DNA of 64,000 nucleotides from contig CAADGV010000012.1 of NCBI GenBank assembly GCA_900696645.1, positions 62,001 through 126,000 on the forward strand, read 5' to 3'. Numbering within the stretch: position 1 is the first letter of the stretch; every line of letters starts with the position of its first letter. The position numbers and the translations under genes were made by a program. Shown here piece by piece: positions 6,072 through 13,769 of the stretch. Below the pieces are notes generated by a model. It searched no databases. It was given only the letters and a program-made list of their open reading frames with translations, and had not been told where the DNA came from. This stretch comes from an uncultured Chlorobiota bacterium (GTDB lineage: Bacteria; Bacteroidota; Ignavibacteria; UBA10030; UBA6906).

Positions 6072-8408
6072 TCATCGAAACACTCGCAGAGATACTGATC
6101 GTGTGTCCAATTCAATGTGTGTTTCGTCCCCTTTACGCTCATACCGTATGGATGAGTCACCATCGGCAGAAACACTGTGAACAAAGACGGGCAAACGTAC
6201 AGACATCCGTTTCGGCGAAAATGTGTTGGTTCGTTCAAACACAACATGTATCTCGATCATCGATGCTGAACAACACACGCGCATGCCAATGACACCGCCT
6301 TGAACACACGCCTTCTCTGCGGAAAAGTCCTTCCCCGGCGAGAACCAAGATTCAGGCACGCCGGCAAGTAGGATCAGATTGGGACCGTCACGCGTTTCCT
6401 GTTCGTAGAGAAAGGCATCCCGCAATGCAAGGGCAATTTCTGCCGCGGCCCAACCATGATGCCCGTCTCCCATACAGCCGCCGAGCGTGAGAGGATGCAT
6501 AGCTTCCGGAAAATTCATCGTGGGTGAGGCGAATGAGCATACAGTGGAGAATATCTCCCAAAATCTTTTGCGGTTGCCACTGTACAGCCATGCATGCGCT
6601 ACCTGAAGAGTGAGGTAGGCGTTCATCCCGCTGTGAATGAAATCCTGGAAGAACATGCCATTTCTGAAAAAACTCTTGTGCAATCCTTCAAGAGTCTCAC
6701 GCAGTCCGTCATCATCTGGCTCGAACAACTGAAGAGGATACCACGCACACACGGAGCCGATCATACCGCAATCAATGCCGCGAAGCGGCCCGGCCGTTAT
6801 TGCTTGTGTTGACGATTTCTCCCGGGAAATCCGGATTGCTCTTTCAATATCCCTGCGATACTGATGCAGTACGCCGCGTGTGCGTGCCGACTCCTCGGAC
6901 AGACCAAGGTGATTGCATATCCCGGCATACGACTCAAGCCCGGCAAGCGACCAGAAGTTGTCCCAGAAATAATAGTCGGCAAGACCGAGATGTTCAGCAC
7001 TCAAACCCCTCGGCAACAGGCCATGGTAAGGCTCCGTGGTACTTCGCATCAGACGCTTTTTCTCAATCCACCTTGCCCCGCGCCGCAAGGATTCCAACTG
7101 CTCCTGAACCAGCGCAGTATCACCGGTGTAGCGCAGATGTTGCCATGCAAGCCACAACACCTGGCCGTTTGAGTCCCACTCGCCTTGTTGAGATCGGAAA
7201 TATCCTGACCGGTGTTGTTTGTTCCGAAAACCCTGCATAACACCTGCGGTGTGCTGTGAAAACCCGTATTTCTCCAGCGCCCAGAGCATATATGCGGCAT
7301 CACGAAACCAGAACTGATGATACGTAAAGGGCCCCGGCGTGATGGAGTGCCTGTCAACAAAAAGGAGAAGTGTTGATAAAGACGACTTAAGCAATGCATT
7401 CATGCGTCGATCGGGCGTTGAAAGCAAACACCCCTTTTTCAACGTACTCTCCCACACGTTTCCCGGATCATCAGAAAGACTTCTGTCCCATCGAACCGAC
7501 GGCAATTGCAGGGAACAACTCGCGTCAACGGATTTTGAAGCACGCGGAATGAGGTCCCCCTCGAATCCTATCGCCGCGTTCCCCAAACCGACGGTACAAT
7601 GCGCCTCTTGCCGATCTCTCACCACTAAATTGGCGATAAGACCGGCACAATCCCCTCCATCATAACCGGAGCATGCAACACGAACAGGTCTGTCGACAAA
7701 ATGAACTTTGACGTTGTTGTTTACCATGAGGTAGTTGTCACGTGCAACGTACTTAACATCATGAACAAGACCTATGCCTTCAGGGTTGAACGGTCGAACG
7801 GCAAAGAAGAGCCGAAAATATTTCGGCGTCGTGGAGTTGTTCCTTACCTCGGCCCGATGAACCAACTCCGTCTTCACGACAAACGTAGTCAGGATTAGAG
7901 CAATATCATCGATCTCGATTATTGTCTCAACGATAGGAACATCATTTACGAGTCGCTGACGAACACTACTCTGTTGCGAGGGGAAGTAGAGATTACCACC
8001 ATACTGCAACCATACATCCAGCGACCAACCATCACGGAACGGTGTTACCATTCCACGCGGGTCAACAATCGGCTCAACATCACAGTCCGGACTTCCCACT
8101 GCCGTCCAGTTTCGATGCGTGAGATTCATGGAGAGACCGAGATGAGAACGGGGGATGAACGCCGGAGAGGACGGGTCATATTGTTGATTCGCCCAATAGG
8201 GGAAGACCCAGTTTCGGATGCTTTGCAGTAGGGTGAAATTAAGAAGGCCGCGCGACAACTGAATCGTATTCAGGGGAATGAGTTCGGTAGGCAACGTGTC
8301 CTTATCGATGCCGCTTACCTCATTTGCCTTCTTAAACATCGTAATGGCCAACGCAGGGACATTCAGCAAGCGGGCTATCCACGCTGCACCGGTTTCGATT
8401 AATTTCAA
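6072..8408 (-). CDS. Large six-hairpin glycoside hydrolase (debranching-enzyme/GH15-like)
   Basis: About 778 residues with no signal peptide. The N-terminal third is beta-rich and the C-terminal half is an (alpha/alpha)6 barrel, with blocks such as HQFWFRDAAYMLWALEKYGF, GEWDSNGQVLWLAW and GCMGDGHHGWAAAE that resemble amylo-alpha-1,6-glucosidase and glucoamylase-like hydrolases acting on oligosaccharides. Acidic catalytic residues are probably in WFRDAAY, GEWDSNG and MNFPEAMHP, but I cannot assign them. The start is uncertain: TTG 8408 has GGAAG 5 nt upstream and keeps a coding-like stretch; ATG 8339 is the first ATG of the good region but lacks a ribosome site; an ATG at 8534 adds a stretch that does not look coding. 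It probably shares an operon with the HisN-like phosphatase. Confidence 0.68.
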   Translation of the reverse strand: MKLIETGAAWIARLLNVPALAITMFKKANEVSGIDKDTLPTELIPLNTIQLSRGLLNFTLLQSIRNWVFPYWANQQYDPSSPAFIPRSHLGLSMNLTHRNWTAVGSPDCDVEPIVDPRGMVTPFRDGWSLDVWLQYGGNLYFPSQQSSVRQRLVNDVPIVETIIEIDDIALILTTFVVKTELVHRAEVRNNSTTPKYFRLFFAVRPFNPEGIGLVHDVKYVARDNYLMVNNNVKVHFVDRPVRVACSGYDGGDCAGLIANLVVRDRQEAHCTVGLGNAAIGFEGDLIPRASKSVDASCSLQLPSVRWDRSLSDDPGNVWESTLKKGCLLSTPDRRMNALLKSSLSTLLLFVDRHSITPGPFTYHQFWFRDAAYMLWALEKYGFSQHTAGVMQGFRNKQHRSGYFRSQQGEWDSNGQVLWLAWQHLRYTGDTALVQEQLESLRRGARWIEKKRLMRSTTEPYHGLLPRGLSAEHLGLADYYFWDNFWSLAGLESYAGICNHLGLSEESARTRGVLHQYRRDIERAIRISREKSSTQAITAGPLRGIDCGMIGSVCAWYPLQLFEPDDDGLRETLEGLHKSFFRNGMFFQDFIHSGMNAYLTLQVAHAWLYSGNRKRFWEIFSTVCSFASPTMNFPEAMHPLTLGGCMGDGHHGWAAAEIALALRDAFLYEQETRDGPNLILLAGVPESWFSPGKDFSAEKACVQGGVIGMRVCCSASMIEIHVVFERTNTFSPKRMSVRLPVFVHSVSADGDSSIRYERKGDETHIELDTRSVSLRVFR

Positions 8409-11573: not shown

Positions 11574-12551
11574 ATGCTCGACTTGACCGAATTGTGGCGC
11601 CTCATATCTGTTCTGGGCAGTACCCTGCCCTTTGTTCTCGCTCCGGGTGTTTTGCTTAATGTGCTGGACGTTGCGGGATGGCGCACAATGCTGGCAACCG
11701 ACAAGCGTGCTGTTCCGTTTACTTCCCTCCTGAAAATCCATATTTCATCAGAGGCGATTGCCAGATCAATTCCTCTCGGCGTTCCGTTTGCTGATTCATT
11801 GAGACTATTTCTCCTGAAGAAGGAAAACAGAATACCGCCAAGCGAGAGTCTCGTCGGCACCATTGTCCGCCGCTGGTCGCTGGGACTCAGCCAGTGCATA
11901 TACGTACTGATTGGAGTAGTCGCCGCTTTCGGATCTGTTTCTGTAGTCTCACGTCATTTTCTCCACGATACTTCGCTGGGGTGGCTTCTCATCGCGGCGG
12001 TTTCAACAGTGGGGCTTGTTCTCTTGGGCGTTTTATACCTGGCCGAGGGTGTCGGAATCGCAAGTCGCTTTCACAACCTTCTTCAACGTATTCCAATCAG
12101 GAAAGTAAGCGAGTTTGTGAATCTGCGGAAAGAAGACTTTGTCATTATCGACAGGAATCTGTTGACAATCCGGACTGCAGGACACAAGCAGCTTGCAGTG
12201 TCCTCCTCTTATTACTTCGCATCATGGTGGATGGAATTTCTGGAGACATATATTCTCCTGCACGCAATCGGTCTGAACGTCAGCTTTCAGGACACTCTTG
12301 CTCTTGAAGCCCTTGTCTCTGCACTTCGACTCGGAGCGTTCTTTCTTCCTGCAGGAATTGGAGTTCAAGAGGCAGGCTATGCCGGCATTCTCGCGGCATT
12401 GGGGGTTGCTGCTTCACCGGCAAGCACGACGCTGTTTATCCTGGCGAAACGATCGAGGGATATAGTTTGGATTGTTCTCGGATACTCCCTCTTACTGATG
12501 AAGGGAGTCATCCCGTCACGCAAAGCGGTTGCCTTGTATCTTACTGACTGA
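11574..12551 (+). CDS. LPG-synthase-like integral membrane protein (UPF0104/AglD family)
   Basis: A 325-residue protein with about seven or eight transmembrane helices and the family signature FFLPAGIGVQEAGYAGILAAL near residue 255, shown in part. The family includes the flippase domain of lysylphosphatidylglycerol synthase and proteins that move or modify polyprenyl and glycerol lipids. This copy has no C-terminal aminoacyltransferase domain. It ends the operon of GT4, phosphoesterase and TPR genes, which suggests flipping or transfer of a glycolipid made by the GT4. The stop codon lies at the left edge of a palindromic repeat. Confidence 0.8.
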   Translation: MLDLTELWRLISVLGSTLPFVLAPGVLLNVLDVAGWRTMLATDKRAVPFTSLLKIHISSEAIARSIPLGVPFADSLRLFLLKKENRIPPSESLVGTIVRRWSLGLSQCIYVLIGVVAAFGSVSVVSRHFLHDTSLGWLLIAAVSTVGLVLLGVLYLAEGVGIASRFHNLLQRIPIRKVSEFVNLRKEDFVIIDRNLLTIRTAGHKQLAVSSSYYFASWWMEFLETYILLHAIGLNVSFQDTLALEALVSALRLGAFFLPAGIGVQEAGYAGILAALGVAASPASTTLFILAKRSRDIVWIVLGYSLLLMKGVIPSRKAVALYLTD

Positions 12552-12732
12552 TGTTACGCAAATTTTTGAATTTCGTTTGTTTCGTAACGACCTCACTCTA
12601 AATCCCTCTCCTGAGAGGAGAGGGACTTGTAGAAACCTCGCTCAAATCTCCCCTTCTCCTCTTAGGAGAAGGGGCCGGGGGATGAGGTCGGTATCAAAAA
12701 AAGAAGCGCCGTTGGGTTTTGCGTAACATCAG
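12548..12732. repeat. 185-bp MITE-like nested palindromic element
   Basis: The ends are a perfect 15-bp inverted repeat (CTGATGTTACGCAAA at 12548-12562 and its complement at 12718-12732). Inside lie an 8-bp inverted pair (CGACCTCA 12588-12595 / TGAGGTCG 12683-12690) and two hairpins: 9-bp stem at 12604-12624 and 11-bp stem at 12650-12674, both built of CCTCTCCT-like arms. The flanks TTACTGA and TTATTGA match at 6 of 7 positions and may be a decayed target duplication. No open frame is inside. It separates two convergent genes and could also end transcription. Confidence 0.75.
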
Positions 12733-12752
12733 TTATTGAAGTTTAGAATCTC

Positions 12753-13769
12753 TCACGTTCTCTTCAGCAAATACACAAACAGCGGCGCTCCGATCGCCGC
12801 GGTGACGGCGCCGACAGGGATTTCGGTCGGGGTAAGCAGCGTCCGGGAAATCACATCCGCAACAATCATGAAACTTCCTCCCAGAAGAATCGAAGCGGGC
12901 ATCAGCAAACGATGATCGGGGCCGAACATCATCCGGCACATGTGGGGAATGATCAGCCCGACAAATCCGATCACGCCGCTCACGGAAACGACCACTCCCG
13001 TAATCAACGATGCAAGTATGTAGGAAAGACGCTTGATATGACGAACATCTACGCCTAGTTGGATGGCGGTTTCGTCGCCCGTTGCAATGAGATTGTACTT
13101 CCTTGACTGCATCAGGAGAATGGCAGACCCGACAACCACGAGCGGCGTCACCACTGCAAGTGATTCCATGTTTGCGTTGCTCAGGTTGCCCATCAACCAC
13201 AAGAATGAGTTGCGCAATTCCTGATTGAAAAGCGCGATAATAAGAAGAACCGCGGCATTGAAGAACGCTCCGATCATTACTCCGGCAAGAAGAAGCGTGT
13301 TGGTGTCGAGTTGGCCCCGCCGATGAGCAATAGTGTACACAAGCAGCATCACAAGGGCCGATCCGAGAAACGACGCAAACGGAGTCGTAAAGGCGCTAAA
13401 CCCCAAACCTAACCCGATGGCGAGGATAGCTCCGACTGTTCCGCCGCTTGAAATGCCGAGAATATACGGCTCGGCAAGGGGGTTTCTCAGCAACGCCTGA
13501 AACACTGCGCCCGAAATCGAAAGACTCGCGCCGACGAGCATCGCCAGAAACAATCGCGGCAGCCGGATATCAACCACGATCGTCCTTACCGACTGGTCAA
13601 CGGACACATCTCCGAAAAGTGACGGAAGGATTGCAGCAAAGGGAATATCAACGCTGCCGACAGATAATCCAAAGATACAGACTGCAACCAGCAATAGTGT
13701 AAGCGAGAACAGAATGCTGACTGTTCGTTTCAGGTCAAGCGGTTTTCGTCCGATGTGTGCGGAAGTCAC
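12753..13769 (-). CDS. FecCD/BtuC-family ABC transporter permease
   Basis: A 338-residue inner-membrane permease with about ten helices. Signatures include RLPRLFLAMLVGASLSISGAVFQ, shown in part, then NPLAEPYILGISSGGTVGA and VSGVIGFVGLIIPHMCRMM. Family members import iron-siderophores, haem or cobalamin with a periplasmic binding protein and a FecE/BtuD ATPase. Neither partner is encoded nearby, so the substrate is unknown and the rest of the transporter must be elsewhere. The start lies 3 nt after the obg stop, implying cotranscription with obg. The gene ends just before the palindromic element. Confidence 0.88.
   Translation of the reverse strand: MTSAHIGRKPLDLKRTVSILFSLTLLLVAVCIFGLSVGSVDIPFAAILPSLFGDVSVDQSVRTIVVDIRLPRLFLAMLVGASLSISGAVFQALLRNPLAEPYILGISSGGTVGAILAIGLGLGFSAFTTPFASFLGSALVMLLVYTIAHRRGQLDTNTLLLAGVMIGAFFNAAVLLIIALFNQELRNSFLWLMGNLSNANMESLAVVTPLVVVGSAILLMQSRKYNLIATGDETAIQLGVDVRHIKRLSYILASLITGVVVSVSGVIGFVGLIIPHMCRMMFGPDHRLLMPASILLGGSFMIVADVISRTLLTPTEIPVGAVTAAIGAPLFVYLLKRT

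Follow-up and report, generated by a model that had tools for sequence, protein, structure and literature searches.

How did a strongly palindromic, gene-less sequence come to lie across the stop codon of one gene and beside a second gene of opposite direction, and what is its interior made of? The locus belongs to a stretch of 64,000 nucleotides, the whole of which is called here the window, and a sequence-only reading had proposed for it a nested, MITE-like element that might be mobilised by a transposase encoded elsewhere. The analysis identifies the element as an ordinary MITE, i.e., a mobile element of a known kind, in which the interior is unusual. Very probably it is an orphan non-autonomous element of IS701 type: its copies would be relics, its donor enzyme absent here and its interior an inverted pair of the bacterial intrastrand triplex motifs known as PIT/TM, DNA of a type for which triple-helical folding is known.

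Extent and Organization of the Element

The mini-transposon occupies positions 12547-12733 of the window (187 bp, non-coding) and is arranged, with its target duplications and its two neighbours, as follows:

11574..12551, + strand: gene with Pfam LPG_synthase_TM (PF03706), a neighbour and not part of the element, ending inside it
12542..12546: left target duplication TACTG, its 5-bp length set by 51 end pairs
12547..12562, + strand: left terminal inverted repeat ACTGATGTTACGCAAA; the same end adjoins IS701-type transposases in relatives
12588..12595, + strand: inner 8-bp inverted pair, left half CGACCTCA
12683..12690, – strand: inner 8-bp inverted pair, right half
12718..12733, – strand: right terminal inverted repeat
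12734..12738: right target duplication TATTG, differing from the left one at a single base
12753..13769, – strand: gene for a FecCD-type permease (PF01032), a convergent neighbour and not part of the element

The two terminal inverted repeats are perfect, as had been noticed, but they comprise 16 bp each instead of 15, one base more per side. The inner inverted pair is present as described, and so are the two separate hairpins with similar CCTCTCC-type arms (hairpin 1, 12604-12612/12616-12624; hairpin 2, 12650-12660/12664-12674), which are now recognisable as a pair of triplex motifs; the element indeed has no reading frame of its own, and the stop codon at which it had been placed, that of the LPG_synthase_TM gene (12549-12551), falls inside the left terminal repeat. 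When up to three mismatches are allowed, the 16-mer end is found at three sites in the window, i.e., both perfect arms and position 7313 (two mismatches), for a shuffle expectation of 0.43 on average. An Rfam scan of the window returned tRNA only.

As single-stranded DNA the element folds at –48.5 kcal/mol, whereas 200 dinucleotide shuffles give –21 (sd 3.5; z –7.8) and none of them equals it. Such a strong fold, in a position between convergent genes, could be that of a bidirectional terminator or regulatory hairpin that is not mobile. However, no terminator-like site was found inside the element, the one nearby lying outside it at 12782-12800 (shuffle mean 0.5), and the five dispersed copies in varied contexts, the target duplications and the empty site reported below make this explanation extremely improbable, while secondary use of the element as a terminator is possible.

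Copies in the Genome and in a Sister Genome

The genome to which the window belongs (G000; 4.2 Mb, 46 contigs, completeness 100) gave nine matches to a 221-bp query, so that the search for copies suggested by the sequence-only reading has now been run, and five places share the element. These are the full-length copies, all with both ends, namely the window copy and four others (C29, C12b at C12:158063, C7 and C6) that are 76–94% identical to it; three further matches are core fragments without terminal ends (two in C33, one in C24), and the ninth falls in the end region of one of the five copies. The copies are dispersed across contexts: as judged by reading frames, one of them separates two genes of the same direction and another lies between a divergent pair. 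Copy C6 (L005 1509-1658) is without hairpin 1 through an internal deletion, which agrees with the deletions at motif pairs in the available text of Holder et al. (PMC4666352). A scan of this genome for further ends with one mismatch found ten places, of which three are partner ends of known copies; since the reversed-pattern control gave 15 hits, the remaining ones are put down to chance.

The joined flanks of four copies were used as queries for empty sites in the sister genome G001. At the C7 locus, about ten bases stand in G001 in place of the element and its immediate flanks in G000, and a single 5-bp target is unreadable there because the local sequence has diverged. The C29 locus of G001 also lacks the element and has a different palindrome; the C12b and C6 queries were matched by one flank only, and the window locus is uninformative because its left gene differs, the permease being conserved. 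Other copies therefore exist, and a relative has the C7 site without the element, the reverse of the unique, site-conserved sequence that would have spoken against a mobile origin. The C29 copy (L002, about 1440-1720) sits within a second inverted repeat (CACTGAGACACTGAGACACGGAG ... CTCTGTGTCTCAGTGCCTCTGTG), and the genes around it resemble a hydrogenase operon by their translations.

Length of the Target Duplication

The flanks TTACTGA and TTATTGA, earlier taken as a possible 7-bp duplication, do differ at one base, but these strings overlap the ends by one to two bases and the true length is 5 bp. This length was obtained from 51 distinct end pairs of the loci collected, with some loose or alternative pairs included: 21 of them have a perfect 5-bp duplication, versus a mean of 2.2 and a maximum of 7 in 500 rounds with shuffled partners, while one is perfect at 4 bp, none at 3 or at 6 to 10 bp, and the 15 perfect at 2 bp equal the shuffle level. 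The insertion target is TANTA-like. In a stricter set without alternative and weak pairs (35 elements), 19 duplications are perfect and 25 agree in at least four of five letters; a hairpin stem of at least 8 is found in the interiors of 19 of these 35 elements, versus 8 of 68 flanks and 5 of 350 shuffled sequences. In the own genome, the duplication is perfect for C7 (GAATC/GAATC) and C6 (TACTC/TACTC), agrees in four of five letters for the window copy (TACTG/TATTG) and C12b (TACTG/CACTG), and for C29 agrees in two of five in register, or reads TTATT/TTATT if the right end is shortened by one base.

A Same-Ended Insertion Sequence in Relatives

Of the 98 genomes of the order, 33 contain the 14-mer end TGATGTTACGCAAA, the reversed pattern giving one hit overall. 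In G036, a complete element of 1,183 bp (L120) has 16-bp ends identical to those in the window, the duplications TATTA/TATTA and, enclosed by the ends, a 359-residue frame with Pfam DDE_Tnp_1 and DDE_5; the L104/L120 transposase scores 312 bits against the NCBIfam profile NF049921 (IS701 family, cut-off 250), so that the G036 element encodes a member of this family while the window element is gene-less. A second complete element, L124 (1,076 bp; end ACTGAAGTTACGCAAA; duplications TAATA/TAATA), also has a transposase inside, whose 173.6 bits lie below the same cut-off. L120 and L124 belong to two other families of the order. Searched in the 98 genomes, the G036 transposase was found at six places in five genomes, and the end adjoins all six of these matches, the strongest in the set, across four genera and four families (one end has one mismatch, and in G089 ACTGAAG is found at both ends); two of the six places are complete elements, both with perfect 5-bp duplications. 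Among the weaker NF049921 matches, 12 of 16 were checked and none had an end pair, five having a single loose end match. ISTth8 of the IS701 family is listed with a 4-bp duplication (available part of PMC6352166), whereas the elements here have 5 bp.

The ends might instead derive from transposases outside the IS701 family, in which case both IS701-type elements would be passengers with borrowed ends, a view that is helped by the position of the donor outside the genus and by the 28 of 33 exact-end genomes without a match to the G036 transposase. The adjacency of the end to every one of the six strongest matches, in several genera and families, and the duplications on both complete copies make it very improbable. 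The window element is, to judge by its sequence, likely an IS701 derivative.

As for the transposase encoded elsewhere, the earlier proposal holds in that a same-ended candidate exists in relatives of the order, but none was detected in the own genome, where an IS701-type transposase was found neither with the G036 protein nor with the NF049921 profile; the search for an intact donor within the genus was likewise negative. The presence of five copies without a detectable IS701-type transposase points to relics of past transposition whose enzyme is now absent. A donor present in this genome but unassembled is unlikely, since none of the exact ends here is close to a contig end, unlike those of G047 and G089, where many exact ends lie 30–90 bases from contig starts, a pattern suggestive of assembly breaks caused by an element with many copies.

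With its inverted ends, short length, lack of genes, dispersed copies, duplications and same-ended partner in relatives, the element is a MITE, and the sequence-only reading was right on this point: copies, target duplications, one empty site and same-ended insertion sequences of relatives all support it. In the mechanism that we propose, the DDE transposase of an IS701-type element of the same order would bind both 16-bp ends and would have moved the copies of this genome, insertion at TANTA-like targets would create the 5-bp duplication, as the ends and the duplications suggest, and the interior would be carried passively along with the ends.

Two Inverted Triplex Motifs in the Interior

The bacterial triplex motif (TM, earlier PIT) consists of a pyrimidine arm, a purine arm, a short linker and a purine-rich third strand; the linkers are of types A and B, and inverted A + B pairs occur in E. 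coli (Holder et al., 2015, PMC4666352, in its available text). By its sequence, each hairpin of the element fits this definition:

12590..12624, – strand: triplex motif H1; arm CCCTCTCCT, loop CTC, arm AGGAGAGGG, linker ATTTA, third strand GAGTGAGGT
12650..12688, + strand: triplex motif H2; arm CCCCTTCTCCT (12650-12660), loop CTT, arm AGGAGAAGGGG (12664-12674), linker CCG (12675-12677), third strand GGGGATGAGGT (12678-12688)

When the purine arm is read backwards against the third strand and G.GC, A.AT and T.AT are allowed, 11 of 11 triples of H2 and 8 of 9 of H1 are allowed, and shuffled tails do as well in 33 and 448 of 200,000 cases, respectively. H1 and H2 form an inverted pair, with a type A linker (TTA-like, ATTTA) and a type B linker (CCG), so that the three blocks, the linker types and the inverted A + B pairing are all shared with the motifs described by Holder et al. 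(PMC4666352, available text). The strict E. coli consensus CCCTCNCCC... is not matched: the arms here end in CCT, those of E. coli in CCC (a form found in the relative copy L074), and one additional type of base pair occurs. The third strands point outward, an orientation shared by one of five E. coli pairs.

In each hairpin, the purine arm would face a third strand able to occupy its groove, and an intrastrand triplex may form from H1 and H2 in the cell; in the available text of Holder et al. (PMC4666352), the triplex signal was absent in vivo. A triplex would either aid the element, for instance by fork stalling, or merely hitchhike.

Many bacteria have PIT/TM motifs in abundance, and the available text of Holder et al. 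(PMC4666352) names no vehicle of their spread and describes them as without association with mobile elements, whereas here the motif lies inside transposable ones. No literature report of a triplex motif within a MITE was found in a search whose coverage mostly left out subscription papers (e.g., Hoyne et al.), and the paper of Holder et al. (PMC4666352, available text) is the one found that treats the motif in bacterial genomes alongside repeats. In E. coli MG1655, none of the five motif pairs has the shells found in this order, and inverted repeats in the flanks are at shuffle level for four pairs (7 of 300 for the fifth). A repeat array within a MITE is known in the same phylum from BrickBuilt of Porphyromonas gingivalis (PMC4596501), which, like other IS-derived MITEs, is short, non-coding, multi-copy and intergenic, with inverted ends (PMC4596501, PMC10969869); in the available parts of these sources, the BrickBuilt interior is a tandem 23-nt repeat, whereas that of the element is an inverted triplex motif pair, and the ends appear unrelated.

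Palindromes and Y1 Transposases

Two inverted palindromes per unit are also the mark of REPINs and BIMEs (PMC3116915, PMC3733652, available parts), and the element could be a repeat of this type that owes its mobility to a single-strand transposase (Y1, RAYT), with the outer ends secondary. The inverted hairpin pair, the cores that lack terminal ends and the three Y1_Tnp genes of the own genome would all fit, and among the interiors of other elements with ends of this family, 19 of 52 are similar to palindromes adjacent to Y1_Tnp genes (several counted repeatedly; 37 alignments), for 0 in 31 control loci whose intergenic content is unmatched. The own-genome interiors, however, are absent among these 19. 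The core tags GGGGGATGAG/CTCACCCTAAATC were found at none of 33 Y1_Tnp loci (the 3 of the own genome and 30 of 57 matches in eight relatives), where partial core amounts to one 9-mer arm (L216) and the 7-mer CCCTCTC in five loci, and GTAG stands beside hairpin 1 in the window copy but in no other own copy. Whereas the REPIN/BIME type involves a RAYT link and a conserved GTAG (PMC3116915, PMC3733652, available parts), the element has an ordinary 5-bp duplication, which, with a DDE transposase, suits an ordinary insertion sequence. A REPIN-type origin is accordingly very improbable, and membership in the REPIN/RAYT group is not supported, given the 33 Y1_Tnp loci without core tags and the lack of a conserved GTAG. 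The likeness to palindromes involves L055 (G000:C31), L056, L057 and interiors in G002, G047, G030 and others.

Covariation of the Three Strands

A motif pattern with two base triples left free, scanned over 98 genomes, gave 60 copies in 12 of them and none when reversed. At the loop-proximal free position, all 60 rows have a purine arm in agreement with the third strand (51 T:A.T, 7 C:G.G and 2 own-genome rows in which the pyrimidine arm alone has changed). In this list, the C:G.G form of H2 is confined to G000 and G002, and may thus be a single change.

Distinct motif strings of the collected loci were also counted against re-dealt strands, a comparison that ignores relatedness. In H1, 21 of 22 strings are allowed at position X (re-dealt mean 10.5, maximum 18) and 20 of 22 at position Y (12.8, maximum 19); in H2, 30 of 30 are allowed at X (18.3, maximum 26), while the 26 of 30 at Y (23.4, maximum 26) do not exceed the shuffles. 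The third position is invariant among these strings. One element, in L074, has motifs with unlike bases at Y, each motif being internally consistent, which pairing between the element halves would not explain. All three strands thus co-vary at X in both hairpins and at Y in H1, which are the informative positions, perhaps through few events. With a third strand that changes in step with its hairpin, both the dispersal of the motif and selection for the triplex become testable.

Different Shells Around One Motif

The motif travels here in elements with ends, duplications, a candidate transposase and several shells. The collected loci contain 44 distinct copies of H2, of which 14 are enclosed by IS701-type ends (4 in G000, 3 in G002, 6 in G060, 1 in G037), five by GAGRCTGTGTGAWAA-like and five by CTGTTGAAAAAC-like ends; 16 have none of the three end types and four are cut by contig ends, while 100 of 2,000 random places have any such end pair. 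The GAGRCTGTGTGAWAA and CTGTTGAAAAAC types were found by eye in the same loci and then counted, and their counts are descriptive. A generic flank alignment with shuffles was mostly at chance, 4 of 17 core loci beating every shuffle, hence the recognition of the non-IS701 shells by eye before counting. In this order, the one motif is found within terminal-repeat shells of three kinds.

A bolder explanation, which we regard as rather unlikely, is that PIT/TM pairs are mobile modules, repeatedly acquired by unrelated mini-transposons, and that the fold has been selected because it is helpful to them, for example by pausing the replication fork at the element; such modules would account for the scatter of the motif over many bacterial genomes.

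In G060 (L255-L264, L221) and G037 (L224), which belong to another family, several copies have the motif inside IS701-type ends, and the sequence between motif and ends differs. The triplex pair is also enclosed by inverted ends of two further kinds, in L250, L254, L011 and L266 and in L265 and L267, and possible 4-bp duplications were read by eye in L254 and L011 (TGAA, TTCA).
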